Source: Poseidonibacter ostreae | Lineage (GTDB): Bacteria > Campylobacterota > Campylobacteria > Campylobacterales > Arcobacteraceae | Reading direction: 5' to 3' | Assembly: GCF_009208075.1 (NCBI RefSeq) | Contig: NZ_WFKJ01000010.1 | Coordinates: forward strand, 1 to 64,000 | Length of the DNA stretch: 64,000 nucleotides | Shown here: in pieces, positions 7,419 to 40,942 of the stretch | How the letters are laid out: each line of letters opens with the position of its first letter | Numbering within the stretch: the stretch's first letter is position 1 | Notes under the pieces: model-generated | The model's input: the letters and a program-made list of their open reading frames with translations, nothing else | What the model was told of the DNA's origin: nothing | The model's database searches: none | Made by a program: the position numbers and the translations under genes

Positions 7419-7772
7419 TTAAATAAATAAGCTTGAAATATCATTCCAAAAGAAGGCGAGTAAATCATCATCTTCAATTGTTATAATATTGCTATTTATA
7501 ATGATTGCTAAATCTTCATCAAATGAAAATCTATTATCTTTTATTGTTGAATTAGTACTAGAAATATCTATCTCTTCTAGATTTATTAAAGCTTTTTTCA
7601 TTAATTGTATATCTAAAATTTCAAATTCTACAGGTAACATTTCGTGTCCTGTACTTATTAAAATTCCAAACTTATTACCATCAAATAATAAATAGTCTTT
7701 ACCTTCATTAATATCATGATTAAATGCTTCACAAACAGCTTGAGTAATTAGAGTATTTTTTAAAATCCTCAT
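7419..7772 (-). CDS. Hypothetical protein, coupled to the preceding gene
   Basis: A 117-residue soluble protein that I do not recognise. It is acidic in its second half and has no signal peptide or membrane segment. Its ATG overlaps the TGA of the preceding gene (ATGA), which implies translational coupling, so the pair probably act together. It lies in the mobile-element operon between the two long leader hairpins. No catalytic motif was seen. Confidence 0.6.
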   Translation of the reverse strand: MRILKNTLITQAVCEAFNHDINEGKDYLLFDGNKFGILISTGHEMLPVEFEILDIQLMKKALINLEEIDISSTNSTIKDNRFSFDEDLAIIINSNIITIEDDDLLAFFWNDISSLFI

Positions 7773-8320
7773 TTTAACAACCTAGTAAGTTCAGCTCTTA
7801 ATTCAATATGCTTATCTGTTTTTTTAATCTTTTCAAAATCAAAATAATTTCTAAGTCTTCTTAATGCAGGGTTATTACTATTTAAAACATAGTGTTTCCA
7901 ACATCTTGTAGATGTCATTAAATTTAAAAGTTCAAAAGTGATTAATTCAATATTTAAATCATTTAGAAGCTTTTTCTTTTCTAAAACTTCATTACTATGT
8001 ATATTAAACAAAGCATTTAATTCAAATCGAGTGATTTTTTTTAATTTTTCACCATCAAAATATAAAAAGTCTTTATTTGTTGTATTTAAGTAATACCAAA
8101 TATTTGATAATCTAAATTCCATTTGTTTTTCAGATTTAGAATAATCATGTTTATTAATATCTAGTAAGCAAATGCTAGTTCCTTTATCCCTATAGGCATA
8201 TAGAAACGCACCCTTGTAGTTTTTTAGTATAGATTTATCTGTAACAGTTAAATCTTCTTTAAAATACTTTAAAGTTTTAAGTACTGTATTTTCTAATTCT
8301 TTATATATATTTTTGCTCAT
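7769..8320 (-). CDS. Hypothetical protein
   Basis: A 183-residue soluble protein that I do not recognise. It is rich in Lys, Leu and Asn and mostly helical in appearance, with no clear motif. AAGGAAAC lies seven bases before the start codon. It is followed by a gene whose ATG overlaps its stop, so the two form a coupled pair. A long nested hairpin (8357-8394) stands just upstream. Confidence 0.6.
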   Translation of the reverse strand: MSKNIYKELENTVLKTLKYFKEDLTVTDKSILKNYKGAFLYAYRDKGTSICLLDINKHDYSKSEKQMEFRLSNIWYYLNTTNKDFLYFDGEKLKKITRFELNALFNIHSNEVLEKKKLLNDLNIELITFELLNLMTSTRCWKHYVLNSNNPALRRLRNYFDFEKIKKTDKHIELRAELTRLLK

Positions 8321-8356
8321 AATGTTTGTTTCCTTATTTTGAGAAAACAGACCAAT

Positions 8357-8394
8357 CCCATAAGGGGTTGGAAAGTTTCCAGAACCCCTTTGGG
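8357..8394 (-). promoter_or_regulatory. Long nested leader hairpin, copy 2
   Basis: This is a close copy of the hairpin at 7312-7351 (AAGGGGTT/AACCCCTT stem around GGAAA/TTTCC). It again lies ahead of a gene start, here the ATG at 8320. The surrounding GACCAATCCCATAAGG sequence is also shared. Confidence 0.6.
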
Positions 8395-8462
8395 TTTTTA
8401 TTAGCTTATAGCAACTTAGTTAGATGATATTAATTCATCTTTATTATGTAGTTTATGACTAG

Positions 8463-9008
8463 TTAAGACACAAGTATAATTGAAGTGACTTTTTGATTAA
8501 TAATAGTATTGATTTGCTCATTAGTTAAAAGACCATAATCTTTAATAATTCCTAATGTTTTATCTTCAACATCTACTTGAGTGTAATTATCATCATTATC
8601 AGTTTCAGCAATCCAGTTATCAGACTTTTGTAAAGTGTCAATTAAATCTAAATAAGTATCTTGTGGAACTTTTCTAATTGTATATGATGAGGTTATATTC
8701 TCAATACCTGCACTTTTGTTAACAGCTGCAAGTTTAATCAATTCAGAAACACTAATTGATATCCTACTTTCTTTATCCATCTGAAGAATTTTATTAAAAT
8801 CTATATCTTCATATGTTGGTAGTTGATCATTAATAATTTCCCAATCGTAAGTTTCTCCATTTATAACTAAACTTCCTGAATCTTCACCTGCAAGAATTCC
8901 ATCATTAATTGACGTTATGAAAGTATCTTCAAGCTCATTTGTAAATCCATTAATTTTAATCTCATGTCCAAGTATAGTTGTATAACCATATTCAATTTCA
9001 GTAGTCAT
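8463..9008 (-). CDS. Hypothetical protein
   Basis: A 181-residue acidic protein that I do not recognise. An upstream ATG at 9056 would add 16 residues, but AAAGGA lies eight bases before the ATG at 9008 and the 9056 start has no such site, so 9008 is preferred. The N-terminus (MTTEIEYGYTTILGHEIKIN) has a beta-strand-rich pattern like small phage or plasmid proteins. No membrane segment, signal or catalytic motif was seen. It belongs to the long minus-strand operon. Confidence 0.6.
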   Translation of the reverse strand: MTTEIEYGYTTILGHEIKINGFTNELEDTFITSINDGILAGEDSGSLVINGETYDWEIINDQLPTYEDIDFNKILQMDKESRISISVSELIKLAAVNKSAGIENITSSYTIRKVPQDTYLDLIDTLQKSDNWIAETDNDDNYTQVDVEDKTLGIIKDYGLLTNEQINTIINQKVTSIILVS

Positions 9009-9096
9009 TTTTTTTCCTTTTAATGTTAATGGTATGAAGTGATTTTCATAAACCATTTAGTTATCGTTAGCCTGTAATGGCATTGTATTTTTAGGT

Positions 9097-10431
9097 TTAA
9101 ATAAAATCAAATAAATCAGTTTGCACCTGTTCTTCTACGTGATGAAGTTCATATGCTTTTTTATAGATTTCATTTCCTTTTAATGTATATATAATTGCAT
9201 TGTCACCAAAGTTAGAAATTTCATTAATTTCTCTATTGATACTTTTTCTAAATGTTAATTCTTGTCTTATTAATATTTCTGATTTTTTATCATATGTAAT
9301 TTGACCATTATAACCGTCATTTTGACATATTGAAGAACCACCATTTCTAAAATTAGGAGCATGTTCTTTGAAATATTTATTTATTTTTGATATAAATTCT
9401 TTTGAAGTTTTAGAATTGCTAATTTCATCTTTCCAATCAAGTAAATTTGAAAAATAGCCATTCATAAATTTTGTAACTTCACAGATTAATACTTCCTCAT
9501 CTGTTTGATAATCAGCATATGGAACTTTTAAAGTTTTCCTTAACCAATCTATGAAACTAGGTTCAAAGAAGTCAAATGAAGGAAGTTTAGTTTTATCATT
9601 ATCGCTGTTACGAGAATAATTAAATTTTCTACCATCAAACCAAAATATTTCTTCAATGCATTCTGGATGAACCCATGAAGAGAAAGATAAGTCAGTAGTT
9701 ACATGTTTATAGCTTTTACGTTTAATAAAGAATAATCTTGTCGTAAACATGACTCTTCTATATAATTCATAATCACTTAATGCACCTGCTCCTGTAATAT
9801 AATCATAAGTATCATCAAACCAACCATCATCATAACGACCACAATTGTCTTTGTACTTTAAAATTACTCTTTTTAATTCTTCTAATACCTCATCTTTAGA
9901 AGGTAAAAATTTTCTCCAATCAATATCTGAATAAAGCCAATATGCATTTGAATCATTAAATAATTCAAAGAATGTATATTGCTTCATAAGATTTGATCTT
10001 TGAACTTTGTTACGAGTATTGAAATAACTATTCCATACTCTATCTTCTCCTTGTTTTGGTGAATCAGGTAACTTATCAAGAATAATTCCAGATTGAGGTT
10101 CTTCAAATAATGATAATTGAATACTTTCATTGCTTTTCTCAAAACTTTTTAGTAAATCAACCCAATTTAAAATCTCATTTACACAAGATTCCAAATATTC
10201 AATATCACTCTTTCTATTGTACATTTCATGATTAGCATCATTTTTTTGTATTTTTAACTGTAACCAAACACTAAATTTAACATTTGTATTAACTTTATGT
10301 ATTTTATCTTTACAAGTTAGTAAATTATATTTTTCATTTGAAGAATCAAGTTCAACGACATCAAAATATTTACAAAGCTTGTCAAAGTCTTTTATTTTAT
10401 TTTTTTCATTTATTAAGTTATTAAAACTCAT
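9097..10431 (-). CDS. Unknown protein with two sliding-clamp-binding motifs
   Basis: A 444-residue protein of unknown family. It carries QLSLF at about residue 107 and QTDLF six residues from the C-terminus. Both fit the bacterial beta-clamp binding consensus (QL[SD]LF), so it probably docks on the replication clamp. The middle (WRKFLPSKDEVLEELKR and following aromatic-rich segments) looks like a folded domain that I cannot name. An earlier ATG at 10479 lacks a ribosome site; GGGAG lies seven bases before the ATG at 10431, which is preferred. It overlaps the preceding gene by 11 bases. A role in replication, repair or DNA modification is inferred from the motifs and neighbours. Confidence 0.6.
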   Translation of the reverse strand: MSFNNLINEKNKIKDFDKLCKYFDVVELDSSNEKYNLLTCKDKIHKVNTNVKFSVWLQLKIQKNDANHEMYNRKSDIEYLESCVNEILNWVDLLKSFEKSNESIQLSLFEEPQSGIILDKLPDSPKQGEDRVWNSYFNTRNKVQRSNLMKQYTFFELFNDSNAYWLYSDIDWRKFLPSKDEVLEELKRVILKYKDNCGRYDDGWFDDTYDYITGAGALSDYELYRRVMFTTRLFFIKRKSYKHVTTDLSFSSWVHPECIEEIFWFDGRKFNYSRNSDNDKTKLPSFDFFEPSFIDWLRKTLKVPYADYQTDEEVLICEVTKFMNGYFSNLLDWKDEISNSKTSKEFISKINKYFKEHAPNFRNGGSSICQNDGYNGQITYDKKSEILIRQELTFRKSINREINEISNFGDNAIIYTLKGNEIYKKAYELHHVEEQVQTDLFDFI

Positions 10432-10660
10432 GTTTTTTCTCCCATAAATGTTTTCCATCTGCACAAGTCCACCAACCATCTAAATCATAGTTCTTTTCTT
10501 TTGTTCCAAATCTAAATGGTGAAGTATAACTTTCAAAAGAAGATGGTTCTTTATAAAAGCAGTAGCCTTTATAATCTCCTATAACTTTCCATTTTTCGCC
10601 TTTTAATAGTGCAATTGATAATGCTTTCCTATCTTTAAACTTTTTAGTAATTTTATTCAT
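10421..10660 (-). CDS. Small hypothetical protein, Trp/Lys rich
   Basis: A 79-residue basic and aromatic protein (WKVIGDYKGYCFYKE, then DGWWTCADGKHLW) that I do not recognise. AAAGAGA lies before the start codon. Its stop overlaps the start of the clamp-motif protein, so the two are probably coupled. The short hairpin at 10677-10694 stands 17 bases ahead of its start. Confidence 0.55.
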   Translation of the reverse strand: MNKITKKFKDRKALSIALLKGEKWKVIGDYKGYCFYKEPSSFESYTSPFRFGTKEKNYDLDGWWTCADGKHLWEKKHEF

Positions 10661-10676
10661 ATTTTCTCTTTTTCAT

Positions 10677-10694
10677 TACCCTATTGATGGGGTA
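10677..10694 (-). promoter_or_regulatory. Short leader hairpin, TACCC type
   Basis: The stem TACCC/GGGTA surrounds an 8-base loop. It is one of four near-identical copies (also at 18844, 20567 and 25326). Each ends 17-21 bases before a start codon, directly ahead of the ribosome binding site. Confidence 0.65.
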
Positions 10695-10714
10695 GTTATT
10701 TTTGTTTTTAATCT

Positions 10715-11209
10715 TTAAAATAAAGATTGTTGTTTGTAAACTTCTTTTGTATCAAAGAAGTCATATATTGCGTTAAATAGTGAACACCACATTATTCTAA
10801 TAAGATGTACGTGGTTTCCTCTATCAATCATTATTTGATTATTCCAATGACAATGCCATATCTGAAATTTATAATTTTCAAACTTTTTATTGATTGAACA
10901 ACAGTCAGCCCTGTATTTAATAACACGAGTTCCTGTAATTCCATATATGTATTCATAAACCATTTCGTCAGCAGCATCATGTTCTTCTGAAACAAAAGTA
11001 CTAGAGAATTTAATTGGTTTAGGAAAGTTAAGTAATTTTTCTTTTAATTTTTTGCCAGAACTGATACTTTTTAAATCAAAGTTACCAATGTATATATTGA
11101 AACATTCTTCAATTGCATCAATGTCAATTTGTTTAAATTCAACATCATTATATTTTGTATCTGTATATCGTTCTAGCCATTCTTTTATATTTTCTAAATT
11201 GGGTTTCAT
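10715..11209 (-). CDS. Hypothetical protein ending in a clamp-binding motif
   Basis: A 164-residue protein of unknown family. It ends in KQQSLF, which fits the beta-clamp binding consensus placed at a free C-terminus, as in several replication and repair proteins. The body is soluble and mixed alpha/beta in appearance, with clustered Cys and His residues (ADCCS, WHCHWNN) that might bind a metal. TAGGAAT supports the start, 15 bases after the DndC-like gene. It may link the neighbouring modification-like enzymes to replicating DNA; this is inference. Confidence 0.55.
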   Translation of the reverse strand: MKPNLENIKEWLERYTDTKYNDVEFKQIDIDAIEECFNIYIGNFDLKSISSGKKLKEKLLNFPKPIKFSSTFVSEEHDAADEMVYEYIYGITGTRVIKYRADCCSINKKFENYKFQIWHCHWNNQIMIDRGNHVHLIRIMWCSLFNAIYDFFDTKEVYKQQSLF

Positions 11210-11224
11210 GTGAAATTCCTATTA

Positions 11225-13111
11225 TTAATTTTCAAACCATCTCATTTTGTCTTGTAAGGAAATACTTTCACAATGGATAATGTCACCTTTTTTATTGAAC
11301 TCATCTAATTGTTCAAAGTGACTACCATAATCTCCGTCATATCCGAATAAGTTATGTTCTGGTTGTTTAATTTCTTTATTTTCTAATTTATTCAAAAAGG
11401 TAATAAAACCAATTTTGTCTTTTCGCCACTCTTCTCTAATATAGTTTTCTTTTGTTGAGTCAACAAAATCCATGCTAGTTTCAAGAGGTAGTATTTTTAT
11501 GTAGTTAATAAGCATTTGCTTATCTGATAATTTAATTTTGTTTGAGTGTAGTGATTTCATTAAAGCTATAGAGTTTTTTTCTTTTTTTTCAAGTTGAATA
11601 GCCATTTGACAAAAGTATCTATCACAAAACTTACTGCTATCAAAAGCAAACTTATCGTTTTCATCATAAACATATTTCCAATTGTACACATCAACATAAC
11701 CTACTTTAGGTTTAGTAAAATCTCTCATTTCTTCAACAGCAACTAATACTCTAGGATATAAGGGATTGATTAGGTGTTTAAAATTTCTATCATGAGCAAT
11801 TTTTACAACACTCATATCTAAGTCACCATCTTCAATCCAACATTCTTGAATATAAGCTAATTCTGCATCTGTAATAAGAGGTGTTTTTCTTTCTTCTATT
11901 ACTTTTCTTTCACATTTTAATAATTCAGATAACATTCTTTTTCTAAAATATAAAGTGTAACCCCCAGGAATTTTCATTCCATGTCGGTGGTTATCAAAAT
12001 CATAATTTTTCATTTTATGTTTACCATGAATATATACATCTCTATTATGATCCCAATGACCATCTCTATATTTAGCAAACCAATTTCTTAGTTTTTCCAT
12101 TTCTTTCATGTATGGGTAGTGTTTAGTTAAGTTACCTAATGTTTTGTCTTTTTCAAAAATCATACAAGACCAACATCCGTATCTAGCACTCATTCCACAT
12201 TGTAATTTAGAGCCTGTTTCAAAACCTTCTAAAAGACTTCTACATTCATCTCCATCACCAGATGCTTCAGCATAAACTCTTCCAAGGGTTAACGAATCAA
12301 TCCAAGTAAGTTTGTGATTATCAATATGATTCCAAACGTCAGAAGTATTCCAATGTTCAATAGGAGCATAGAGATTACAATCTTTGAATTCATGTACTTT
12401 AAACGAGCCTTCAACCGTTTGTGCTTTCATACGATTTTTTCTCTCTAATGATTCATCTTGTCTTTGACCTGTAATTGCAATAAAACCGTTTTTAGTTTGA
12501 TTTAAAATGTTAACAATTAGTTTCTTTTGAGGTTGGATTTTTAAACGATCAGTACACCATCTTTTTGAATTTCTAGAGGGCATAATGTAACCTTTTCCAA
12601 TCAGCAAAGAGAAATAAGTGTTCTTAGTACTAGGTGAAACTTTTCTTACATCTAAACAAAGCTTGTGTTTAATACCAAATTCATCAATCTTATTGATTGA
12701 GTTTAAAATACCTTCTATAACGGGGTCCATTTCAAGTAAAGTATCAGAAAAGATTACATAAGTAGTCTTATTAATAAATTCTTGTCCATACATATGTTTA
12801 ATTAATAATAATGACTTTAGAACTACATCCATAGTTACAGTTGAATCTTTTCCACCCGAATATGCACAACTAAAAACTCTTGAATCAACAACATATAGGT
12901 ATATTAATTCGCTATATGTATTTATCTGTTTTAGTATGATAGGAGCAGTAAAACCTTCTATATCTAATGAGGTTATACAATTTAAAAAAGATTCAATATC
13001 TTGTTTAATTAATGTAATTAGTTCTTTGTCAAAACCTTTATCTTTAAATGATTTTCTTTGTAGTTTTTTTATTTTATCCTCAAAGATTCTTATATTAGGT
13101 CTATATGACAT
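11225..13111 (-). CDS. Orphan DndC-like PP-loop protein (PAPS-reductase superfamily)
   Basis: A 628-residue protein. Residues 85-90 form SGGKDS, the PP-loop that adenylates substrates. Next come FSDTLLE, then LIGKGYIMPSRNSKRWCTDR with LKIQP, an almost exact counterpart of the DndC signature. After YAPIEHW comes CGMSARYGCWSCMIFEKDK, which matches the Cys-rich Fe-S region of DndC. DndC uses ATP and an Fe-S cluster to place sulfur in the DNA backbone (phosphorothioation). No dndB, dndD or dndE gene is present, and the C-terminal 250 residues go beyond typical DndC. It may therefore carry out another ATP- and sulfur-dependent nucleic-acid modification. Homology is firm; the reaction is not known. 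Confidence 0.75.
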   Translation of the reverse strand: MSYRPNIRIFEDKIKKLQRKSFKDKGFDKELITLIKQDIESFLNCITSLDIEGFTAPIILKQINTYSELIYLYVVDSRVFSCAYSGGKDSTVTMDVVLKSLLLIKHMYGQEFINKTTYVIFSDTLLEMDPVIEGILNSINKIDEFGIKHKLCLDVRKVSPSTKNTYFSLLIGKGYIMPSRNSKRWCTDRLKIQPQKKLIVNILNQTKNGFIAITGQRQDESLERKNRMKAQTVEGSFKVHEFKDCNLYAPIEHWNTSDVWNHIDNHKLTWIDSLTLGRVYAEASGDGDECRSLLEGFETGSKLQCGMSARYGCWSCMIFEKDKTLGNLTKHYPYMKEMEKLRNWFAKYRDGHWDHNRDVYIHGKHKMKNYDFDNHRHGMKIPGGYTLYFRKRMLSELLKCERKVIEERKTPLITDAELAYIQECWIEDGDLDMSVVKIAHDRNFKHLINPLYPRVLVAVEEMRDFTKPKVGYVDVYNWKYVYDENDKFAFDSSKFCDRYFCQMAIQLEKKEKNSIALMKSLHSNKIKLSDKQMLINYIKILPLETSMDFVDSTKENYIREEWRKDKIGFITFLNKLENKEIKQPEHNLFGYDGDYGSHFEQLDEFNKKGDIIHCESISLQDKMRWFEN

Positions 13112-13130
13112 AATCTTCCTTTTTGTTGAA

Positions 13131-13145
13131 TGCCAATAATTGGTA
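13131..13145 (-). promoter_or_regulatory. Short leader hairpin, TGCCAA/TTGGTA type
   Basis: A short inverted repeat ending 20 bases before the DndC-like start codon. Its position matches the TACCC hairpins although the stem sequence differs, which suggests that the structure is what is conserved. Confidence 0.5.
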
Positions 13146-13183
13146 TTATTTATTAAAATTTGAACACACCATAAAGAGATGTA

Positions 13184-13220
13184 CTAACCCAAAGGGAAAG
13201 TAAAATCCCTAGGGGTTTAG
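13184..13220 (-). promoter_or_regulatory. Long nested leader hairpin, AGGGA type
   Basis: The outer stem is CTAACCC/GGGTTTAG and the inner stem AGGGA/TCCCT. A very similar element is at 15361-15396. It lies in the leader of the DndC-like gene, upstream of the short hairpin at 13131. Confidence 0.55.
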
Positions 13221-13256
13221 CTTTAAAAGCGATTAATTTATTATTCTTTTATTGAT

Positions 13257-13829
13257 TTAAGCCCAATCTTTACCTTCAGTACCATAATTACTATATGTTT
13301 TTTTATATAGGCTTTTTGATTCTGATACTTTGATAAAATATTTATTTTGATCAAACTTACAAACAATATATTTCTTTATTAAATAACAATCTGTAGTAAC
13401 AAGATCAATTGATGTTTCAAAATCAATGTCACGTCCTTTATAGATAGGTTTTTTATGAGAATAATAAGAACCAAAGTCTTTATTTGAAAGTCTGTTTAGT
13501 AACTTTTTATCAATATCCTTCATACAAAAAGTATTTACTTCTCGATGTGCATCTATATTGTCTAAGTTATATCCATAGTTTTCAATATCAAATTCAACTT
13601 CTTCTTTATTATCTATGTAATAAATTTCCTTTTCATCAATAACTATTTTCTTTAAAGAAAAAACATCTAATTCATTTTCTTCTAAAGCATTAAATGCATA
13701 TTGAAAATAAGAAACATCTAATTCTTTCTCTACTGTTTTTGATAAAAATAAGTCTATTACTTCTTGATTATTAATAATTTCACATTCATTTAATCTATTA
13801 AAAAAGATTTCATTAAATTTTGTGTTCAT
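13257..13829 (-). CDS. Hypothetical acidic protein
   Basis: A 190-residue soluble, acidic protein that I do not recognise. The start at 13829 lies 18 bases from a short leader hairpin (13847-13865), with an AAAGGAAA-type site before it. No enzyme motif, signal or membrane segment was seen. It lies between the TGT-like and DndC-like genes, so a role in the same process is possible but unproven. Confidence 0.55.
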   Translation of the reverse strand: MNTKFNEIFFNRLNECEIINNQEVIDLFLSKTVEKELDVSYFQYAFNALEENELDVFSLKKIVIDEKEIYYIDNKEEVEFDIENYGYNLDNIDAHREVNTFCMKDIDKKLLNRLSNKDFGSYYSHKKPIYKGRDIDFETSIDLVTTDCYLIKKYIVCKFDQNKYFIKVSESKSLYKKTYSNYGTEGKDWA

Positions 13830-13846
13830 TCTATTTCCTTTTATTG

Positions 13847-13865
13847 AATACCATTAATTGGTATT
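13847..13865 (-). promoter_or_regulatory. Short leader hairpin, AATACCA/TGGTATT type
   Basis: A 7-bp perfect stem with a 5-base loop, ending 18 bases before a start codon. It belongs to the same positional class as the TACCC hairpins, with a changed stem that still pairs. Confidence 0.6.
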
Positions 13866-13870
13866 ATTAT

Positions 13871-14821
13871 TTAAAATTCAAATACACCTTGTTTTGATGC
13901 ATGTTCAAATTTTTTAAATTCTTTTGGAGAAAAGTTAACAATTGAAGTATCACAGCTATCAGCACTAATGCTTCTTGCAAATTGAAGTCTTCTTTTTGAA
14001 CTTACTCTTCCTATATGACATCTTTTATCATACTTATGAGCTAGTTTTGTCCACGATTCCATTGTTTTTAATTTCCATTCGACTTCTGTTGATTTTGGTT
14101 TTCCAAATCCGTTAAACGTAGGAGAGCCACCAACAAACAAACCATCAAATTCTATATTTTGTTTATTATTATGTTTACATAGATAAGGTTCTACATCAAC
14201 TAATTCCATACCATTTTGTACAACTAAAAATTTCGGAAATGGACAAAAATCTAATTTAGATAAATAACTAATGCTATATTCTAAAGATTCAATACCACCA
14301 CCGATAATGTCAGGTACAACGATAAAATCAGGAAATTTTCTTTCTCTATGCAATGTTCGTAGTTTTTCCTTAAACTTTTTGTCATTAAAGGATAAACCAT
14401 TTATAAAATCAGCAAATACACCATTATCAAATGCGAAGCCATGTTGTTGAGCATCACTTTGTTTAATTCTTAACATATTTACAGTTTCCATTGTGGACCA
14501 ATTATTCTCATAAGTAGCAGTTCTTTTTTTACCTGTTGGAGAACCAATATAAAGTTTAGTTTTTGGAATATAGTTCATACCCATAAACTTAAATATTTCA
14601 ATATCATCAACAAAACTATCTTCTTCAATACTTAGATCAAGTAAACTATTTTGTAAAACAAATTCAGTTGCCTTGTATCTAAACACTTCAGTATGATAAT
14701 CAATATCTAACATTGAAACAGGTGGTAAGTAAAACTCATATTGATTTGCAACAATAATTTCACCAATTAAGAGATAGCCATAGTGATGATTAAATGCAAT
14801 ATAACCTGTATATTCATTCAT
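13871..14821 (-). CDS. TGT-like TIM-barrel protein (DpdA-related)
   Basis: A 316-residue protein with the order of motifs expected for the tRNA-guanine transglycosylase superfamily, nearest in style to the DpdA proteins that insert 7-deazaguanines into DNA. FDNG at 131-134 holds a candidate catalytic Asp. PDFIVVPDIIGGG follows at about 164-176, VQNG at 201-204, and HIGRVSSKRRLQFARSISAD at about 269-288. The zinc-binding Cys/His set of true tRNA enzymes is not evident. The ATG overlaps the stop of the preceding gene (TAATG). No genes for preQ0 synthesis are in the window, so the host would have to supply the base. The superfamily call is fairly good; the substrate is inferred. Confidence 0.6.
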   Translation of the reverse strand: MNEYTGYIAFNHHYGYLLIGEIIVANQYEFYLPPVSMLDIDYHTEVFRYKATEFVLQNSLLDLSIEEDSFVDDIEIFKFMGMNYIPKTKLYIGSPTGKKRTATYENNWSTMETVNMLRIKQSDAQQHGFAFDNGVFADFINGLSFNDKKFKEKLRTLHRERKFPDFIVVPDIIGGGIESLEYSISYLSKLDFCPFPKFLVVQNGMELVDVEPYLCKHNNKQNIEFDGLFVGGSPTFNGFGKPKSTEVEWKLKTMESWTKLAHKYDKRCHIGRVSSKRRLQFARSISADSCDTSIVNFSPKEFKKFEHASKQGVFEF

Positions 14822-15327
14822 TAGATTTCTCTAAAGTGATTTAAGTCAATTTTATTTATCATTACACCAAATGAATGAGTGTCATCTATCCATTGATTAG
14901 AACCATTAGTATAGAAGTTTTCTTTAAATCCCTTATAGAGTTCTTCAAAGCCTTCTAGCATAGCATTGTAAGCTTCATCATATGATTCAAAATAACCAAA
15001 TTCAACTCTTGAGTTTGAATCAAAATGTGTATTGAATTGGGAAAGTTGATATATGTGATTAAATTTATTTATTTTTATAGTTACTTTATAAGAAGTGCCT
15101 TTAGCCCATTCTTTGTTTTTTATATAGTTATAAATACCGATTTTCTCAAAAGAAATATTTTCAAAAATCTTAGTTAATTCTTCTTGTAAATCTAAACATT
15201 CTTGATTGAATTCAAATGTTATAGCGTTTTGACAATATAAATCACTAGATAAGTATTGATAATTTAAATCTGGTATTGAATCTAACTGGTTTTTTATAAC
15301 TTGTAATATATTTTTATTTTTAAACAT
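14821..15327 (-). CDS. Hypothetical protein coupled to the TGT-like gene
   Basis: A 168-residue soluble protein that I do not recognise, rich in aromatic and acidic residues (FGYFESYDEAYNAMLEGFEE). Its stop overlaps the TGT-like ATG, so the two products are probably made in fixed ratio. It may be a partner of that enzyme. Two hairpins (15361 and 15434) lie in its leader. Confidence 0.55.
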   Translation of the reverse strand: MFKNKNILQVIKNQLDSIPDLNYQYLSSDLYCQNAITFEFNQECLDLQEELTKIFENISFEKIGIYNYIKNKEWAKGTSYKVTIKINKFNHIYQLSQFNTHFDSNSRVEFGYFESYDEAYNAMLEGFEELYKGFKENFYTNGSNQWIDDTHSFGVMINKIDLNHFREI

Positions 15328-15360
15328 AATAATTGCCTTATAAATTTAAATAAGAGAATA

Positions 15361-15396
15361 CTAACCCAAAGGGAAAGTAAAATCCCTAGGGGTTAG
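15361..15396 (-). promoter_or_regulatory. Long nested leader hairpin, AGGGA type, second copy
   Basis: The outer stem CTAACCC/GGGTTAG encloses an inner AGGGA/TCCCT stem. The element and its flanks (TTAAAGCGA) closely match 13184-13220. It lies 34 bases ahead of the start codon at 15327. Confidence 0.6.
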
Positions 15397-15433
15397 CTTT
15401 AAAAGCGACTAGTAAGTAATTTAATTTTTATTG

Positions 15434-15453
15434 AATACCATTAATTAGGTATT
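15434..15453 (-). promoter_or_regulatory. Short hairpin, AATACC/GGTATT type
   Basis: A 6-bp perfect stem that is close in sequence to the element at 13847-13865. Here it sits between the upstream stop at 15455 and the long hairpin at 15361, so its distance to a start codon is not the usual one. Confidence 0.5.
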
Positions 15454-15454
15454 A

Positions 15455-15877
15455 TTAATTTTCTTTTGAGTTTTCAATTATGCTTTTTGTAATTCTTTCA
15501 AAATCATCAAGCATGTAATCAAGTGGGTAATTAATATTATAAATAATTTTTTCGTCTGAATCTGAATTTAATATTTCAGTTGTAGACATTTGTTTCATCA
15601 TAATTTTAATATAAGAGCTATACTCTTCATATGGGTTAGTAATATTTTTACTATCTAAAACAGTATGTAATATTGCATAAAATTCTTCATCTTCATCATA
15701 AATTTTTTCAATAAGTTTAGCTTCCTCTTTATAAGAATCAGTAAAATCATCATCAAAAATCATTGAGTATTCGTCATTGCTTGTTTTTTCAGCTACATAA
15801 ACATGTAAAGAAGACCCAGATGTTAATTCAACTAAGTATTCTTTTGCATTAAATTTAATTTCTTTTCCGTAACTCAT
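15455..15877 (-). CDS. Small acidic hypothetical protein
   Basis: A 140-residue, very acidic soluble protein (DDDFTDSYKEEAKLIEKIYDEDEE) that I do not recognise. The start at 15877 is the first ATG after the preceding gene, with AAGGATAA upstream. Its charge would suit a DNA-mimic or adaptor protein, but there is no motif to prove that. It lies mid-operon. Confidence 0.55.
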   Translation of the reverse strand: MSYGKEIKFNAKEYLVELTSGSSLHVYVAEKTSNDEYSMIFDDDFTDSYKEEAKLIEKIYDEDEEFYAILHTVLDSKNITNPYEEYSSYIKIMMKQMSTTEILNSDSDEKIIYNINYPLDYMLDDFERITKSIIENSKEN

Positions 15878-15917
15878 AAGTTATCCTTGTTTATTTTATA
15901 TATAATAAGTATTGTTT

Positions 15918-16469
15918 CTAGTTGAACAAAATTCCATAATCACGTCTTAATACATCCATCTCTAACTTTTCGTTAAATACCATAAGACCTACTCTAATTC
16001 CTTTAGGAACAGGTGTATTATCTAAATAACAAAAATTCATGAACATATCTTTCTCATCATCAACTCTTTCTGTTATACACTTAGATTCAATTGAATCTTT
16101 TTTAAAGTAGTATGTACGAACTAATTGAATTGCTTCAAAACGAAGATTAATAGGAACATCTGGATGAAAATAAAAACTATGATTTTTTGCATAATAATCG
16201 AAAAAATCATCTGTATTTTCTCCACCAGATTTTTTGTAATATTCTTTTAAAATTTCCATTCCTTCAAATGCTGTATCAAACTTCCAATAATGAAATTTAT
16301 GATTCATTTGATTTTTCCATTCATCATTTGACCCATTGATAATTAAATCATTAATAGTCAAAGGGTCAAGTCCTAGTTCTTTAAAAAAATCCTTAAACAT
16401 TTTATTTTCATGTCCAAGTTTTTTAATCGCATTTACACTTTCTAATGTAGATAGTTTCTTATTATTCAT
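15918..16469 (-). CDS. Hypothetical protein
   Basis: A 183-residue soluble protein with no family that I can name. The first half is helical; the second has an aromatic stretch (FFDYYAKNHSFYFHPD). AGGAAATATT lies before the start. It lies between the PP-loop gene and the acidic protein in the same direction, and it has no visible membrane or metal motif. Confidence 0.55.
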   Translation of the reverse strand: MNNKKLSTLESVNAIKKLGHENKMFKDFFKELGLDPLTINDLIINGSNDEWKNQMNHKFHYWKFDTAFEGMEILKEYYKKSGGENTDDFFDYYAKNHSFYFHPDVPINLRFEAIQLVRTYYFKKDSIESKCITERVDDEKDMFMNFCYLDNTPVPKGIRVGLMVFNEKLEMDVLRRDYGILFN

Positions 16470-16560
16470 AATATTTCCTGATTTTTGATTTTATTCATAA
16501 AAGACATTAATTGTATTTATGAATGTTAATTAGTTAGTAATGTGCTATTACAACATTTAT

Positions 16561-17937
16561 TTAGTATTGAGATTCAACACAATTTCCATGAGAAAATTTG
16601 TATCTTTGTAATTCCTCTAATGTAACATTAGGATATTTTTCTTTAGCTTCATTTAGCATATCAATTAATGTAAATGCATTGCCTTTATTGTTTCCATCTT
16701 TATGAAGTCTTGCAGTAGCACCAAGATTTGGAACTTTCATTTTTAAAACTTTTTCTGTTTTATTTATGAAGTCTTCAATAGATGTATTATCTTTATAGTT
16801 CAAACAATTAATAGTAATTTGTGTATTAGTTTTAATTGCAGCTTCTAATTGTTGATTTAGATATGTTGTTGATATCTTTTCTAGTAAGTCGATTCTAATT
16901 GTTTTCTTTTGATCTGGATGAGGTTTAGCTAATTTATTTAAAACAATATTGTGATTGTTCTTATAATGCTTTAGTTTATTCTCTTCTAAAACAACCCACT
17001 CTTTGAATTTCATAGGTAAGTTCATATATAACCATAATATTTCCATGTGAGAGCCACTTGAAAAAGGACAAAAAATACAATTAGAGGGAAAGGGAACTTC
17101 AATATTTAACGAATTAATATACTGTTGACAAGTTGTTCTATCATAACCTATATCAAGTAATGGATATTCAGTAATTATAGATTGTCTTTTCCATTTCTCC
17201 TTGTATTCTACATTGTAAGTGAATTCAATTAGAATTTCTTTTTTATTAATTTGAATATATCTATCTGAATCTTTATAGGACACTTTTAAGTTACCATGTT
17301 CAGAAGTTGCAAAATATTCAATACCTTTAATAGTTCGCAGATGACCTAATGTTTTATTATTATTCATTAAGATGTGCCAAGAACCATTTACTCTTTTTTC
17401 TTCATTTTTAGATATGCCTATAAGAAATCTTATTTTCCCATGATATTTTGCATATTCTACATATTCTCTTTTATTACCTTTGGGTAGATTGTATTTCTTT
17501 GAAATTCTATCGCCTAAGTAATTGTATTGAGGTAGTAATTTTAAGTTGTGAGTACAGCTTTTAGGATAACCCATTGAACCAATTGTTGGTGTATTAAGTT
17601 TCCATTGATAAGTTAGTGTTTGCCAAGTTCTAGAATGAAACCCCATATCATTAGTAATTTTTACAAATTCAATATTATGTAATTTACACAATGGAATAAG
17701 AACTCTATCAATATAATCATACGTGAAAGGATGTTCGTTTCCTGTATCTGCAAAGAGTACTAGTAATTGATGTGTAGCATATTTCTTTCTAAAGTCTTTG
17801 TCATAACAGATTTTTAAAAAAATTGTCATACTATCTTGCCCTGCACCCATACATAAAACTGTTAAGTTACTAAGTGATTTTTCATTGACAAAAATATCAT
17901 CAAATTTATCAAATAGATTTGTTTCTAAGTAAGACAT
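16561..17937 (-). CDS. PAPS-reductase-like PP-loop protein, GAGxxS type
   Basis: A 458-residue protein of the adenine nucleotide alpha-hydrolase superfamily. The PP-loop is GAGQDS at 31-36, a variant seen in many phage and plasmid PAPS-reductase-like proteins. LLVLFADTGNEHPFTYDYID follows, then a C-terminal CIFCPFSSG motif that could bind metal or Fe-S. Relatives are annotated as PAPS reductase/FAD synthetase, but their reaction is mostly unknown. It is the second PP-loop protein in this operon, beside a methyltransferase (12 bases away), and a TGT-like gene lies 1.7 kb downstream. GGAG is well placed before the ATG. A part in base or backbone modification is plausible but unproven. Confidence 0.65.
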   Translation of the reverse strand: MSYLETNLFDKFDDIFVNEKSLSNLTVLCMGAGQDSMTIFLKICYDKDFRKKYATHQLLVLFADTGNEHPFTYDYIDRVLIPLCKLHNIEFVKITNDMGFHSRTWQTLTYQWKLNTPTIGSMGYPKSCTHNLKLLPQYNYLGDRISKKYNLPKGNKREYVEYAKYHGKIRFLIGISKNEEKRVNGSWHILMNNNKTLGHLRTIKGIEYFATSEHGNLKVSYKDSDRYIQINKKEILIEFTYNVEYKEKWKRQSIITEYPLLDIGYDRTTCQQYINSLNIEVPFPSNCIFCPFSSGSHMEILWLYMNLPMKFKEWVVLEENKLKHYKNNHNIVLNKLAKPHPDQKKTIRIDLLEKISTTYLNQQLEAAIKTNTQITINCLNYKDNTSIEDFINKTEKVLKMKVPNLGATARLHKDGNNKGNAFTLIDMLNEAKEKYPNVTLEELQRYKFSHGNCVESQY

Positions 17938-17949
17938 TGTAATTCTCCA

Positions 17950-18822
17950 TTATAAAGACCATACACCACGTTGAACATTGTTATAATGTTTTTGTAGTAA
18001 TTGTCTAATTTTAGCTTTCCAATGAGTGTTATTAGTAATTAGATGTGCTGCAACTCTTTCAATTTCATCATAGATAATATTGAGTGGAGCAGTCTTATAT
18101 TTCATCATTACGATTCTAATTGCATTTCTCCAAGTTGTAGCCACCCTCTTTTGTAATTCTGAAGCAATATCAAATGAAATTGCAATCATAGATTTTTTCT
18201 TTTTCTTCCATAAAATTAAATATTCATGAAGAATGGGAATAAAATTACCGTTATAATGCGTATTGTTAGATAAACAATTATGCTGAAGTTTAATAGTTAC
18301 AGATAAAAGTTCATCTTTAGGCATCATTTGTATAAAGTCGGATTGGTAACTTCTAAAGCTTCCATTCTTTCTATGGTCACCAATTAAAGTTGAATAAATA
18401 CCACCCTCTTTTGTTGCTTCTCTTTGGTTAAATAACATTAGTTGAGATTTTGAAATAAATTCTTCTGGATTATCACATCTTGAAGTATCTCCAACTATTG
18501 CATCATCACCATAAACAGAACCAGAATAAGTAATCATATTGTGATATGGGGGATGAGTAAAACATATATCTGTAGGATGAGGTAATTGTTCTAGTATTGA
18601 ATCTTTTGTAAAGTCATTGCCATTATATAAATCTAGACCTACATAATTTACATTCATATCTTTACATACATCTCTTGATGTTCCAGAACCTTCACACGCA
18701 TCAACAAACAAGTTTGGACGGAAATGTTCAATCATCTCTTTGATAATATATCCTGAACTATTTCCTCTCCAACTTGACTTTCCCCATTTACCTCTATTTG
18801 GATAACTTAATACACTTTTCAT
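17950..18822 (-). CDS. DNA methyltransferase (N4/N6 amino type)
   Basis: A 290-residue protein. DACEGSGTS at 41-49 is a SAM-binding motif I, and HPPY at 90-93 is the catalytic motif IV (usually [DNS]PPY), with His in the first place. The C-terminal part, ending in a helix-rich stretch and QRGVWSL, looks like the small winged-helix tail of some restriction-associated enzymes. No paired endonuclease is seen, so it is probably an orphan methylase of the element that protects or marks its DNA. The hairpin at 18844 stands 21 bases ahead of its start. The His in motif IV is unusual and could change activity. Confidence 0.7.
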   Translation of the reverse strand: MKSVLSYPNRGKWGKSSWRGNSSGYIIKEMIEHFRPNLFVDACEGSGTSRDVCKDMNVNYVGLDLYNGNDFTKDSILEQLPHPTDICFTHPPYHNMITYSGSVYGDDAIVGDTSRCDNPEEFISKSQLMLFNQREATKEGGIYSTLIGDHRKNGSFRSYQSDFIQMMPKDELLSVTIKLQHNCLSNNTHYNGNFIPILHEYLILWKKKKKSMIAISFDIASELQKRVATTWRNAIRIVMMKYKTAPLNIIYDEIERVAAHLITNNTHWKAKIRQLLQKHYNNVQRGVWSL

Positions 18823-18842: not shown

Positions 18843-20549
18843 TTACCCTATTGATGGGGTAGTTATTTTTTCTATATTATTTTTTTGTAAAACTTCATTG
18901 ATATCAGAACCTAGTTCAATATCCCAAGTTTTAACACTTACATTTTTAGCACCTGCATCAAGTATTAAATCTTTAATACCTTTACTAATACTGATGTCAT
19001 AATTTATATTTTTGTCTTTGAATAAATTCAAATGCTTATTGAATTCATCTAAATAAATATCACTATTTATAAATTGAATTTTAATATTTGTAATATCCCC
19101 TACTTTAGATGAAGTTATATTTGAATCATTTAAATCTTGATACTTCATTAAAAGGCTATAGTGAGATAATTCAGTTGATGATAAAGATACATTAAGAGTT
19201 TTAATTCCATAAGCAGATTTTTGTCCTGCATAATCTTGATCAAACCAAATTTCTATTTCTTTATTTTCAAAAAGTCCATAATCTTCAATCCTCATACCAT
19301 TAACACCTGCAATACTTACATCATATGTGTTATGCATGATTGGTAATGAAAAAGAATCTATTGAGCCTTCTTGAAGTCTTATTATTGAATTTTTACTTTG
19401 AAGTACTTCTCTTGTTAAACCAAATGGTAATGGAGAAGCTATTCTACTAAATGATAATTCTGGTTCTTTTAAATTCTTACTTTGCCATTGTGCTAGTTTT
19501 GTATTTCTAAGTTTTAATCCTGTAACCATATTTGAATACAAATCAAAACTAGGAATAACACAAAAGCCTTCTTCAGAATAATGTTTAAATGAATGAGGGT
19601 ACTTATGATTATCATCGTTAATTACACCAAAGTGAATTAAGTCTTCAGTTGAGTAAATTTCTTTTAAATGATTAATTAGATTTTCTAAGTCATCAATTGA
19701 TAAGTACCCTACTTTTGTATTTATAAGATTAACTTTTGATAATAATTTAGTATATGTTAATGCTGAAATACCTCTACTCTTGTAATATTTAATTTTTTTC
19801 TTTTGATTTGAAGTTAATGAATACTCATATATTGATGTAACAATCATCATGAATTTTTGTTTCTCATTCATATTAGAATACAATTCTAATGTTTTAGAAA
19901 AATTTACTTCAGTATATTTCTTGTTTACATCAAATTTAGTATAAGTCACTTCATTATTTGTTGTTACAGTTGAAGATACTTTTTTAGGTACTTTAAAATT
20001 TATTTGTTCAGTATCTAAATGTACTTCTAAAGACTTTTGATATAAATCAAAGTCTATTCCTATTCTTTTTGCAAGTTCTAATAAAGCATCTATTGTTTGT
20101 AGACCTTTTTCTTTTCTAAGATAATTATAAATACTTGATTTGTATCCACATTTGTTTTCACGTGAGCATTTGATAAAATTTGATTCTCCATGATTTGGTA
20201 CAAAAAGTTCTTTTTTACCACAGCTAGGACAAATTCCACCATGAGCATTATTTTTCCATTGAAATTCTGGGAAGTCTATACCAATGTTTATTTGTGACTC
20301 TAAGAATTCAATTTTTTGATTAATAGGTATAACTAATGGTTCTAATCCTAATTTGAATCTATTACATAGTTCTAATAGTTTTATTTTGTATTCTTGTTTA
20401 TTAATCCAAGAAAGTTTGTTATCCATATTTTCTAGTTGTTTAATGAATGCATATAAAGAGTTATATTTATCATTTTTAAAATGTTTTAAAAATAATGCAG
20501 CATCCTCTTCATTTAGTGCATGTTTTGTATAGTATTGTAAATCTAACAT
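18843..20549 (-). CDS. DNA primase with zinc finger and Toprim domain
   Basis: A 568-residue primase-like protein. After about 100 helical residues comes a CHC2-like zinc finger (CPSC at 107-110, then CSRENKC at 128-134). The Toprim domain follows, with EGSIDS at 394-399 and the acidic FDQD at 436-439 for metal binding. Such proteins make RNA primers for replication or conjugative transfer. No helicase Walker A motif was found, so it is not a fused primase-helicase. AAAGGATA supports the start. The C-terminal codons lie inside the hairpin at 18844-18861. It fits a self-replicating or mobilisable element. Confidence 0.75.
   Translation of the reverse strand: MLDLQYYTKHALNEEDAALFLKHFKNDKYNSLYAFIKQLENMDNKLSWINKQEYKIKLLELCNRFKLGLEPLVIPINQKIEFLESQINIGIDFPEFQWKNNAHGGICPSCGKKELFVPNHGESNFIKCSRENKCGYKSSIYNYLRKEKGLQTIDALLELAKRIGIDFDLYQKSLEVHLDTEQINFKVPKKVSSTVTTNNEVTYTKFDVNKKYTEVNFSKTLELYSNMNEKQKFMMIVTSIYEYSLTSNQKKKIKYYKSRGISALTYTKLLSKVNLINTKVGYLSIDDLENLINHLKEIYSTEDLIHFGVINDDNHKYPHSFKHYSEEGFCVIPSFDLYSNMVTGLKLRNTKLAQWQSKNLKEPELSFSRIASPLPFGLTREVLQSKNSIIRLQEGSIDSFSLPIMHNTYDVSIAGVNGMRIEDYGLFENKEIEIWFDQDYAGQKSAYGIKTLNVSLSSTELSHYSLLMKYQDLNDSNITSSKVGDITNIKIQFINSDIYLDEFNKHLNLFKDKNINYDISISKGIKDLILDAGAKNVSVKTWDIELGSDINEVLQKNNIEKITTPSIG
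18844..18861 (-). promoter_or_regulatory. Short leader hairpin, TACCC type, overlapping a stop codon
   Basis: The same TACCC/GGGTA stem and loop as the other three copies. Here it also encodes the last residues and stop of the primase gene, and it ends 21 bases before the methyltransferase ATG. Confidence 0.65.
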
Positions 20550-21573: not shown

Positions 21574-22530
21574 TTAGATGACTTTTACATAAGAGTAAAC
21601 ATCATTCTTTTTTCTGTATTTTGAATATAGTTCTGGTTCTTCAATCTTAAATCTTGATACATCCATGTCATAGTTATTATTTTTTGAAACTAATTGAATA
21701 GTTGTGTCATTAAACTTTGCTATATTATTATTCGTTGTTTTCATAAAATCTTTTAATGATTTTTTTATTATCCATGCTTCTTTTTCGTATTGTTTAAGTA
21801 ATCCTAATTTCTTTATATATTTTGAAACTTCCATAGGTAATACCGTATTACTTTTTGAAACTAGGGCAGGGCAATCTTTTTTGAAAGGACATTTAGAACA
21901 AAATAATTGTTGTTCAGCAAGAGGTTCTTGATTTGTTTGTAATGCATTTGCAAGTAAATTTGCTTTGTTGAATGCAATATCATATAAAGTTTGATTTTGG
22001 CTAACTTTAAAAGTTTTATTCCAACCTGTATTAACATCAATTGCAATAACATAACCTCTTATAGTCTTATTAGGGTGTTTTTTCTGTAGTAAACCCATTT
22101 GTAACTGAATTTGTAAAATCCAAGATTCATAAGGTTCGTCTACAGGAATACTAGTTGATTTTGCTTCAATAACAACAATTTCTTTTTTACTAGTAATAGT
22201 AAAATCAATATGTGCTTTGATATCAAAACCATTAAGTGCTTTTCCATTTGCTTCAACTTGTGTTAAATAGTTCATTCCTTGTAGCATTTTTTCTACAATA
22301 CCTTCAGCTATATGACCTCTTTGAAAAACTATGTATTGAGGAATATCATATTCAACAATATGTTTTTTTGAAAGATATGCTTTTCTTAAACAACTTCCTA
22401 TATCAGATGCACCAATATATTTAGTTCTATCACCTAAAGATTCTTTAGTTTCTTCAGCAATGATTTTTGGTAGCTTATCTTCAATGTATAAGTCAAATTC
22501 TGTTTTTTGTGAGTTTTCATTTAGTGACAT
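21574..22530 (-). CDS. Cas4-like PD-(D/E)XK exonuclease
   Basis: A 318-residue nuclease. HIDF at 107-110 gives the first catalytic Asp, and VVIEAKS around 119-125 gives ExK. Q138-Q144 (QIQLQMG) follows as in RecB-family nucleases. Cys47 plus Cys211, Cys214 and Cys220 (CSKCPFKKDC) are placed like the four Fe-S ligands of Cas4/AddB proteins. There is no CRISPR array or other cas gene, so it most likely acts with the adjacent RecT as the 5'-end resecting half of a phage-type recombination pair. AAGGA precedes the start. Confidence 0.8.
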   Translation of the reverse strand: MSLNENSQKTEFDLYIEDKLPKIIAEETKESLGDRTKYIGASDIGSCLRKAYLSKKHIVEYDIPQYIVFQRGHIAEGIVEKMLQGMNYLTQVEANGKALNGFDIKAHIDFTITSKKEIVVIEAKSTSIPVDEPYESWILQIQLQMGLLQKKHPNKTIRGYVIAIDVNTGWNKTFKVSQNQTLYDIAFNKANLLANALQTNQEPLAEQQLFCSKCPFKKDCPALVSKSNTVLPMEVSKYIKKLGLLKQYEKEAWIIKKSLKDFMKTTNNNIAKFNDTTIQLVSKNNNYDMDVSRFKIEEPELYSKYRKKNDVYSYVKVI

Positions 22531-22601: not shown

Positions 22602-23756
22602 TTACTTGTTAGAAAATAAATTTCCTTCTATACACTCATTAGTTGAACTAATTCCATGTACTTCTTTAAATTCATCAACCATATTTTTAAGTTTTGTTAA
22701 GTCAGAAAGTATTTCATCAATATCTTCAGTATCTTCTTTAGTTACTCCTAAAACATCATTTACAAAAGATGTAATATTTTCATCATTTAGTTTCATTTCA
22801 TTTTTTAGAAAATTAAACAGTTTTACTGCAGAAGATTGTTTTTTTGGTTTTTGTTGAGTGTTAAAATTTTGATTACTTGATGAGGTTTTTACTTCTTCTG
22901 TAACTTCATAAATTATTTCATCATCAACATTTTTATTTTGATTTGTAGTTTGAATACTAGTAGATGAATCAATTAAAATTGTCCATTTTTCGTCTTCGTA
23001 TGTAAATCCTAATTCTTTTATAGTTTTACTATGTTGAAATGTATCACCTGTTATGTATGCATAATCATTAAGTTTCTCAATTTGTAAACCTAGTTGACTG
23101 ATTGCATCTTCAATTGAAGCTGTTAAGTAAGACTTTGTTTCAACAATTTGTTCAACCTCATCTTTTGTATAAACACCTAAGATAACGTCAGGACAATATA
23201 ATCTACTCCATTTCTTAGCAGCTAAGTAAGCAAGTTGCTGTTTAGGATCTTCAGCCCAAAGAGTTGAATTTCTTGTAGTAACTTGCAAAAGTGATAATTT
23301 TAATTCTCTAGGTTTTGTTTCATTTAATAATGTAGCACGTACAATAACACCGACACCTTGTTCATCTTCAGGAGTTGAATTTGATACACGATATTTATGC
23401 CCTTTTGGTGAAACTTTTTCTTTTGTTTTTCCAATTACATTTTCCCAAGTACCATAATATTCATACTCAAGTCTGGATTGTATTGGAGCATTATTATTAA
23501 TAATTGCAGATACTAGTTGTGATTCGTAACCAAGGACACCATTTAATAAAAAGGTTTTTTGAGCAACAGAAAATGGATTCATTCCCCATTGAGCAGATTG
23601 CATAATAATAGCTAAACAATCACCTTCGTTTTTTAAGTGTTTTGGAATACTAACAGATGATGTTGACATAATTTTTGCAAGTGTAAGCATTTGCTCCATT
23701 TGATCTAAACCAACAATATTTAAGCCTGTATTATTTTGTATTAGTGAATTTTTCAT
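22602..23756 (-). CDS. recT: RecT-family single-strand annealing protein
   Basis: A 384-residue protein. The N-terminal 200 residues follow the RecT pattern: SSVSIPKHL, then GDCLAIIMQSAQWGMNPFSV, FLLNGVLGYESQLVSAI and a later QQLAYLAAKKWSRLYCPD. RecT proteins anneal complementary single strands during recombination. The C-terminal 150 residues are acidic and loosely ordered, as usual for the family. It lies just upstream of the Cas4-like nuclease, its expected partner. AGGAAATT precedes the ATG. It probably helps replication, repair or recombination of the element. Confidence 0.85.
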   Translation of the reverse strand: MKNSLIQNNTGLNIVGLDQMEQMLTLAKIMSTSSVSIPKHLKNEGDCLAIIMQSAQWGMNPFSVAQKTFLLNGVLGYESQLVSAIINNNAPIQSRLEYEYYGTWENVIGKTKEKVSPKGHKYRVSNSTPEDEQGVGVIVRATLLNETKPRELKLSLLQVTTRNSTLWAEDPKQQLAYLAAKKWSRLYCPDVILGVYTKDEVEQIVETKSYLTASIEDAISQLGLQIEKLNDYAYITGDTFQHSKTIKELGFTYEDEKWTILIDSSTSIQTTNQNKNVDDEIIYEVTEEVKTSSSNQNFNTQQKPKKQSSAVKLFNFLKNEMKLNDENITSFVNDVLGVTKEDTEDIDEILSDLTKLKNMVDEFKEVHGISSTNECIEGNLFSNK

Positions 23757-35332: not shown

Positions 35333-35357
35333 TTCTTCTCCTCTCCTACTTCTAAAA

Positions 35358-35388
35358 ACCTTCAATTTTATAATTGGAGGTCTTTTTT
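35358..35388 (+). terminator. Rho-independent terminator after copA
   Basis: A 10-bp stem (ACCTTCAATT with AATTGGAGGT, one T-G pair) is followed by CTTTTTT. It ends the chaperone-repressor-copA operon. Confidence 0.75.
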
Positions 35389-35413
35389 CTAAAAAAATTA
35401 AATATTAATTGTT

Positions 35414-35446
35414 TTCCTCATTCCTTCCTTACTAACTCTTTATAAT
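35414..35446 (+). promoter_or_regulatory. Promoter with TTCCTCATT direct repeat
   Basis: TTCCTCATT and TTCCTTACT start 11 bp apart, and TATAAT follows at 35441. The same layout and spacing precede the gene at 41695. Copies of this promoter precede all four array genes. Confidence 0.6.
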
Positions 35447-35475
35447 ACACCATATAAAAAATCAAAGGATTAAAA

Positions 35476-37989: not shown

Positions 37990-37995
37990 TTTCTA

Positions 37996-40935: not shown

Positions 40936-40942
40936 GGAGTAT

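Follow-up and report, generated by a model that had tools for sequence, protein, structure and literature searches.

Introduction

DNA marks of the 7-deazaguanine and phosphorothioate types are known from phages and from defence islands. The DpdA of phage 9g puts host preQ0 into plasmid DNA in Escherichia coli, and 7-deazaguanines protect phage DNA (PMC6884629); homologues of DpdA and of DndC also serve in the defence systems of bacteria (PMC12839542, PMC10853773). Here we analyze a window of 64,000 nucleotides from Poseidonibacter ostreae (assembly GCF_009208075.1, positions 1 to 64,000 of the 69,803-bp contig NZ_WFKJ01000010.1), in which a compact protein resembling tRNA-guanine transglycosylases (TGT) and DpdA, hereafter TGT-L, is encoded in one run of genes together with a DndC-like protein, a second PP-loop protein (PP-loop 2), and a DNA methylase. 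The explanation that we favor, as the probable though far from certain one, is that a conjugative plasmid, or an element resembling one, carries these genes as part of an island for DNA masking (anti-restriction), in which several DNA marks are stacked against restriction. A preliminary description of the window had reported the four genes with their motifs, and all four open reading frames (ORFs) are indeed present, in one run and all on the minus strand (Table 1).

Results

TGT-L has no match in Pfam or NCBIfam, and its sole match, phrog_15826, is labeled 'unknown function'. Its relatives are found in 19 phage records, several of them annotated 'DpdA-like tRNA-guanine transglycosylase', in 171 plasmid records, of which 146 come from Pseudomonas, and in at least 253 viral stretches, and only 3 of the 397 Campylobacterota genomes carry one. 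An archaeal family member is encoded on the Natrinema pallidum plasmid pNPA70, where it stands in a row with a DUF6884 protein and where no PAPS gene is present. A sequence search of the PDB with TGT-L gave no match, and a profile search of the PDB returned only unrelated proteins (expect value, E, 0.07 or worse). An AlphaFold2 model was built from 53 sequences; its predicted local distance difference test score (pLDDT) is mostly above 90 in the core, and the model is confident over about residues 100–310. Residues 1–90 are an N-terminal extension of low model confidence, which is partly common to the plasmid versions of Pseudomonas and Burkholderiales and is missing in the versions from phages, from the Malaciobacter mytili plasmid pAMYT, and from Sulfurimonas indica.

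Foldseek comparison of the model with the PDB placed tRNA-TGTs among the top matches (E about 4e-5), with thiazole synthase at a similar E, and VIA-align gave TGT a Z of about 15 over 213–214 residues. Because pyruvate kinases tie with TGT in the latter comparison, the PDB taken by itself shows the modeled protein to be a TIM barrel and nothing narrower. The matches in a viral structure library appear more telling for the model, as the named matches at E ≤ 1e-3 are almost without exception queuine transglycosylases or DpdA, including gp87 of phage Sonali, and other named barrels (glycerophosphodiester phosphodiesterases) rank later, at E 3e-3 or worse. These viral matches also include an uncharacterized protein, possibly DpdA2 itself, from Vibrio phage nt-1, in which DpdA2 was defined (PMC6884629). 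Across the 53 relatives, D132, D171, Q202, G231, G232, and D291 are invariant; arranged by motif (D132-N-G, P170-D171, Q202, G231-G232, H269, D291), the invariant residues keep the TGT order D(S)G, D, Q, GG, D, for which the reference residues are D102, D156, Q203, G230, and D280 in Zymomonas mobilis numbering. An hhalign comparison with 13 Campylobacterota TGTs pairs Q202, G231-G232, and D291 with Q193, G220-G221, and D271 of the host TGT, at a non-significant E of 0.06. The suggested active-site equivalence with TGT thus rests on residue order and on a profile alignment below significance.

Genes of the queC type were found in 22 of the 80 viral TGT-L loci that we compared with 80 DnaB-anchored control loci, none of which had one (p 9e-8); a representative queC neighbor matches Pfam QueC at 6e-38, and QueE-like genes are present in several of the TGT-L loci. 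Arthrobacter phage Sonali encodes a small DpdA-like protein (gp81) along with the full-length DpdA gp87, queC, queD, queE, and a GTP cyclohydrolase, and the pair gp81/gp87 suggests different roles for the small and the full-length proteins. The queC and QueE neighbors and the Sonali gene set tie the family to preQ0, and as the family adjoins queC in viral contigs, the most likely identity of TGT-L is that of a small guanine transglycosylase of the DpdA type, acting on DNA. Fold, residues, and queC neighbors hence agree with the preliminary description, which had assigned TGT/DpdA-like motifs to this protein and had proposed structure prediction as a check of the TGT fold: the prediction gave a TIM barrel with TGT and DpdA among the best named matches. 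The same description had noted the absence of preQ0 synthesis genes and had seen in it a hint of a new base. These genes are absent from the element itself, but the host genome encodes QueC, QueF, and its own tRNA-TGT; the host should therefore supply preQ0 and preQ1, and the missing genes are no sign of a new base.

Most members of the TGT superfamily modify tRNA, and tRNA-TGT structures match the TGT-L model, so it has to be considered that TGT-L acts on host tRNA or another RNA, for example to tune translation, and that its neighbors are unrelated. However, the C-terminal zinc site of bacterial tRNA-TGT (C-x-C-x2-C...H) is not present in TGT-L, no cysteine is among the invariant columns of the 53 relatives, and TGT-L has no RNA-binding domain, the phage relatives being barrel-only with a core of about 200 residues. 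The host already has a TGT, the phage relatives adjoin replication genes, methylases, and queC, and the window contains no tRNA gene. Given the missing zinc site and the DNA-related neighbors, we consider an RNA target quite improbable.

The DndC-like protein carries the motifs SGGKDS, RWCTDR, and CWSC, and its cysteines C186, C290, C305, C313, and C316 are all shared with six true DndC proteins, which the same TIGR03183 search finds in relatives; the earlier DndC-like assignment is borne out by these five cysteines. Its TIGR03183 score stays under the curated cut-off of 290.4 bits, and it has a C-terminal extension of about 200 residues. It groups with the homologue of pAMYT (62–66% identity) and is closer to true DndC than to the large PP-loop proteins of Pseudomonas and Burkholderiales plasmids. 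Similar genes occur in 2286 plasmid records, 1806 of them typed conjugative. No DndD exceeded the cut-off anywhere in the genome (24 vs 246 bits), and dndB and DndE were not recognized among the proteins of the run, to which the DndE search was limited. With a DndC-like protein that scores under the family cut-off and a genome lacking DndD, a Dnd system was rejected. Genuine backbone phosphorothioation by the DndC-like protein, independent of TGT-L and with host IscS and further partners, would fit the conserved PP-loop and cysteines, and IscS can stand in for DndA (PMC10853773). The low family score, the extension, the genome-wide absence of DndD, and the lack of a recognizable dndB or dndE in the run all argue against such an activity, which we hold to be improbable.

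A related idea is that the locus is a restriction system, resembling Dpd or the phosphorothioate type, by which self DNA is marked and DNA lacking the mark is cut, since DpdA and DndC homologues have been assigned to defence systems, as cited above, and a PD-(D/E)XK nuclease is encoded upstream. This nuclease, however, pairs with RecT and a primase-like gene, as on plasmid pHRV44, the genome lacks DndD, and the homologues of the locus are mainly found on plasmids and phages. Since a PADLOC scan of ten proteins from the run matched none of the Dpd or Dnd restriction genes, a defence role seems very improbable.

PP-loop 2 keeps three of the five DndC cysteines, and so do the small PP-loop proteins of plasmids. 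It groups with proteins of pQBR55, Marinobacter, and Deinococcus and not with the small PP-loop partners on TGT-L plasmids. Its relatives are few (7 plasmid records), and among the 104 genomes of the family searched, only its own genome carries it. TGT-L is present on one of the four tested plasmids with PP-loop 2 relatives, about 80 kb apart, and PP-loop 2 is probably a separate passenger. Viral contigs scanned singly with the PP-loop 2 and DndC-like sequences, and genome contigs scanned singly with the TGT-L sequence, gave no match. The methylase family is typical of conjugative plasmids, with 861 plasmid records (783 typed conjugative) vs 3 phage-collection records, and on pHRV44 homologues of the primase-like and nuclease genes flank the methylase as well.

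Parts of the locus recur elsewhere. Contig 15 of S. indica NW8N holds the methylase, TGT-L, a small ORF, a 161-residue ORF, and the DndC-like gene in one same-strand run; methylase, TGT-L, and DndC-like gene have the same relative order as in the window, the methylase is 75% identical to that of the window, and the TGT-L gene overlaps its end. Csf2- and Csf3-like type IV CRISPR genes, below cut-off, are located at 7772–11798 of this contig, within about 3 kb of the run. On pAMYT, TGT-L directly follows a cytosine methylase and is about 5 kb from the DndC-like gene, and on plasmids of Caballeronia and Paraburkholderia the DndC-like gene comes directly after TGT-L. On the Pseudomonas mendocina plasmid pPME5, TGT-L and two PP-loop genes, one small and one large, lie within 6 kb; on a Burkholderia vietnamiensis plasmid, TGT-L is close to a site-specific methylase and to a small PP-loop gene; and in Rhodococcus phage ReqiPine5 a PAPS-reductase gene adjoins TGT-L. 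PF01507 genes are present on 12 of the 14 inspected TGT-L plasmids (large and small together on nine), and a placement test of their distance to TGT-L gave p 1e-4, the true strength being lower as several plasmids are related. The controls were only five named plasmids, none with TGT-L; two had a large DndC-like gene and none a small PP-loop gene. A large DndC-like gene alone is hence not specific to TGT-L plasmids.

In viral loci, PAPS genes accompany TGT-L in 6 of 80 cases vs 2 of 80 controls, which is not significant, and in the reverse test none of the 60 loci anchored on DndC-like genes contained TGT-L. The link between TGT-L and PP-loop genes is therefore mainly a plasmid feature, and its pairing with PAPS genes as a phage feature was rejected. 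In one viral contig (4274–7929), TGT-L is preceded on its own strand by a DndC-like gene, about 1.5 kb away, and two viral contigs carry QueC and a PAPS-type gene together with TGT-L. A fixed four-gene system was likewise rejected, as PP-loop 2 is unlinked and the DndC-like viral loci lack TGT-L. What stands of the proposed co-occurrence of the four genes is the S. indica operon of methylase, TGT-L, and DndC-like gene and the TGT-L/PP-loop pairs of plasmids, whereas PP-loop 2 drops out. In the open literature we found nothing on a plasmid DpdA with a PAPS reductase; the small DpdA family may already be named in 2023 work on phage 7-deazaguanines.

The recurring proximity raises the idea of a coupled pathway, in which TGT-L would insert a 7-deazaguanine and the DndC-like protein and/or PP-loop 2 would then modify this base, for instance through an ATP-dependent transfer of sulfur onto its 7-substituent, resulting in a sulfur-containing 7-deazaguanine in DNA. 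The adjacent genes on plasmids of several genera, the S. indica operon, and the pPME5 cluster speak for it, as does the retention of all DndC cysteines in a genome without DndD. On the other hand, DndC-like genes are far more widely distributed on plasmids than TGT-L, viral DndC-like loci are devoid of TGT-L, viral TGT-L loci much more often have queC than a PAPS gene, and the linkage may merely reflect shared anti-restriction islands. Coupled sulfur–deazaguanine chemistry, possible in view of the linkage and the conserved cysteines, is in our judgment rather unlikely. A plasmid hybrid modification, widespread on large Pseudomonas, Burkholderiales, and Campylobacterota plasmids, in which TGT-L and then the DndC-like protein would generate either a 7-deazaguanine that contains sulfur or a linked mark of base and backbone, we regard as unlikely.

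The minus-strand run spans about 25.3 kb down to 4.6 kb and is headed by RecT, the PD-(D/E)XK nuclease, and the Toprim primase-like gene. Downstream of the DndC-like gene, the 460-residue protein has homologues near the TGT-L and DndC-like genes of pAMYT and S. indica, and the pAMYT homologue of the 183-residue protein is encoded directly downstream of the DndC-like gene. Among the three small ORFs upstream of TGT-L, only 15918–16469 matches pAMYT, weakly (9e-9). The putative coupling protein, which belongs to a plus-strand set beside the run, points to a conjugative element. Neither a relaxase nor an integrase was identified, and the element could be a plasmid or integrated; megablast found no plasmid relatives close at the DNA level.

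Table 1. Predicted genes of the minus-strand run and the neighboring coupling protein, with positions in the window.
Feature	Position	Strand	Match or remark
RecT	22602-23756	-	head of run
PD-(D/E)XK nuclease	21574-22530	-	head of run
Toprim primase-like	18843-20549	-	head of run
DNA methylase, N6/N4 type, THPPY motif	17950-18822	-	Pfam N6_N4_Mtase 1.3e-6
PP-loop 2, 458 aa, GAGQDS and CIFC, PAPS-reductase-like	16561-17937	-	weak PAPS-family matches, phrog_424 1e-18
Three small ORFs between TGT-L and PP-loop 2	14821-15327, 15455-15877, 15918-16469	-	no assigned function
TGT-L, small TGT/DpdA-like TIM-barrel protein, 316 aa, predicted DNA guanine transglycosylase	13871-14821	-	phrog_15826 9e-26
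190-aa ORF between TGT-L and DndC-like	13257-13829	-	no detectable relative
DndC-like PP-loop ATP pyrophosphatase, 628 aa	11225-13111	-	PAPS_reduct 3e-9; TIGR03183 212 bits
460-aa protein, function unassigned	9097-10479	-	pAMYT 4e-40; S. indica 4e-47
183-aa protein, function unassigned	7769-8320	-	8e-30 to pAMYT 21836-22504
Type IV secretion coupling protein, TraG/TraD type	28800-30158	+	TraG-D_C 7e-11

Elsewhere in the window, a copper/heavy-metal resistance region (32796–48891 and 58537–63986) comprises an ArsR-like regulator, two P-type ATPases, a multicopper oxidase (TIGR01480), two-component regulators, and a CusA-like pump. Four copies of a secreted-looking 144-residue ORF with identical translations, exactly 693 bp apart and each with internal 117-bp repeats, lie at 35476–37989 and represent either a recent amplification or an assembly effect. 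At 53742–58445, a type I restriction-modification-like methylase, specificity-like genes, and another adenine methylase are encoded.

Discussion

Our analyses lead us to favor, with the reservation expressed at the outset, a masking island on a conjugative element, either a plasmid or plasmid-like. The barrel-only TGT-L would swap guanine in the DNA of the element for a 7-deazaguanine, preQ0 or preQ1, drawn from the host queuosine pathway, and the methylase would methylate adenine or cytosine. Two further proteins, the DndC-like one and, acting separately, PP-loop 2, may be iron–sulfur ATP pyrophosphatases; they would activate a position in nucleic acid, with sulfur transfer as the probable purpose. 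Such marks could be independent or partly coupled, and by overlapping they would hinder restriction when the DNA enters a host or is maintained in it.

Several observations weigh against this explanation. Pyruvate kinases equal TGT as structural matches in VIA-align, the profile alignment with the host TGT stays below significance, and that with Sonali gp87 covers only a 24-residue DNG/DSG stretch (E 0.04, not significant). Neither viral test supported a pairing of TGT-L with PAPS or DndC-like genes. Furthermore, preQ0 in plasmid DNA gave no EcoRI resistance, and the DNA of Mycobacterium phage Orion, which has a DpdA without a preQ0 source, is unmodified (PMC6884629).

If large plasmids do pair a compact DpdA-like enzyme with DndC-like proteins, hypermodified DNA would extend to plasmids, including clinical Pseudomonas megaplasmids, and a testable role would be at hand for the many "PAPS reductase" genes that are so far unexplained on mobile elements. 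The joint presence of relatives on large plasmids of distant bacteria suggests a little-studied plasmid route past bacterial defences, and it can now be asked directly whether plasmid DNA contains 7-deazaguanine or sulfur.

Among known systems, the bacterial Dpd cluster, a restriction island for dPreQ0/dADG, is similar in having a TGT-type enzyme that uses the host preQ0 pathway, but PADLOC and NCBIfam, applied to the ten proteins of the run, found no other Dpd component. The CysH-like protein of type IV-B CRISPR systems (PMC8175902) is, like the PP-loop proteins of the window, a PAPS-reductase-like protein of unassigned role on mobile elements; no csf genes were recognized in the run, however, and the PP-loop proteins of the window keep the CxxC cysteines. 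With DndC, the DndC-like protein has the SGGKDS PP-loop and all five cysteines in common, and it differs in its sub-threshold family score, the extra C-terminal region, and a genome without DndD. The actinophage proteins Phegasus gp54, Sonali gp81, and Aoka gp40 belong to the same family as TGT-L (phrog_15826 type, 25–28% identity); they are already annotated 'DpdA-like tRNA-guanine transglycosylase', a function given by annotation, and are without the N-terminal extension of the window, Pseudomonas, and Burkholderiales versions. Phage DpdA and DpdA2 (PMC6884629) resemble TGT-L in the predicted TIM-barrel TGT fold, with DpdA as top named structural neighbor, in the association of the family with queC, and in the possible use of host preQ0. 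In contrast to them, TGT-L has a core of only about 200 residues, neither its sequence nor its profile links it significantly to the full-length DpdA of Sonali, and its family is present on some 170 plasmids, accompanied by PP-loop genes instead of preQ0 genes.

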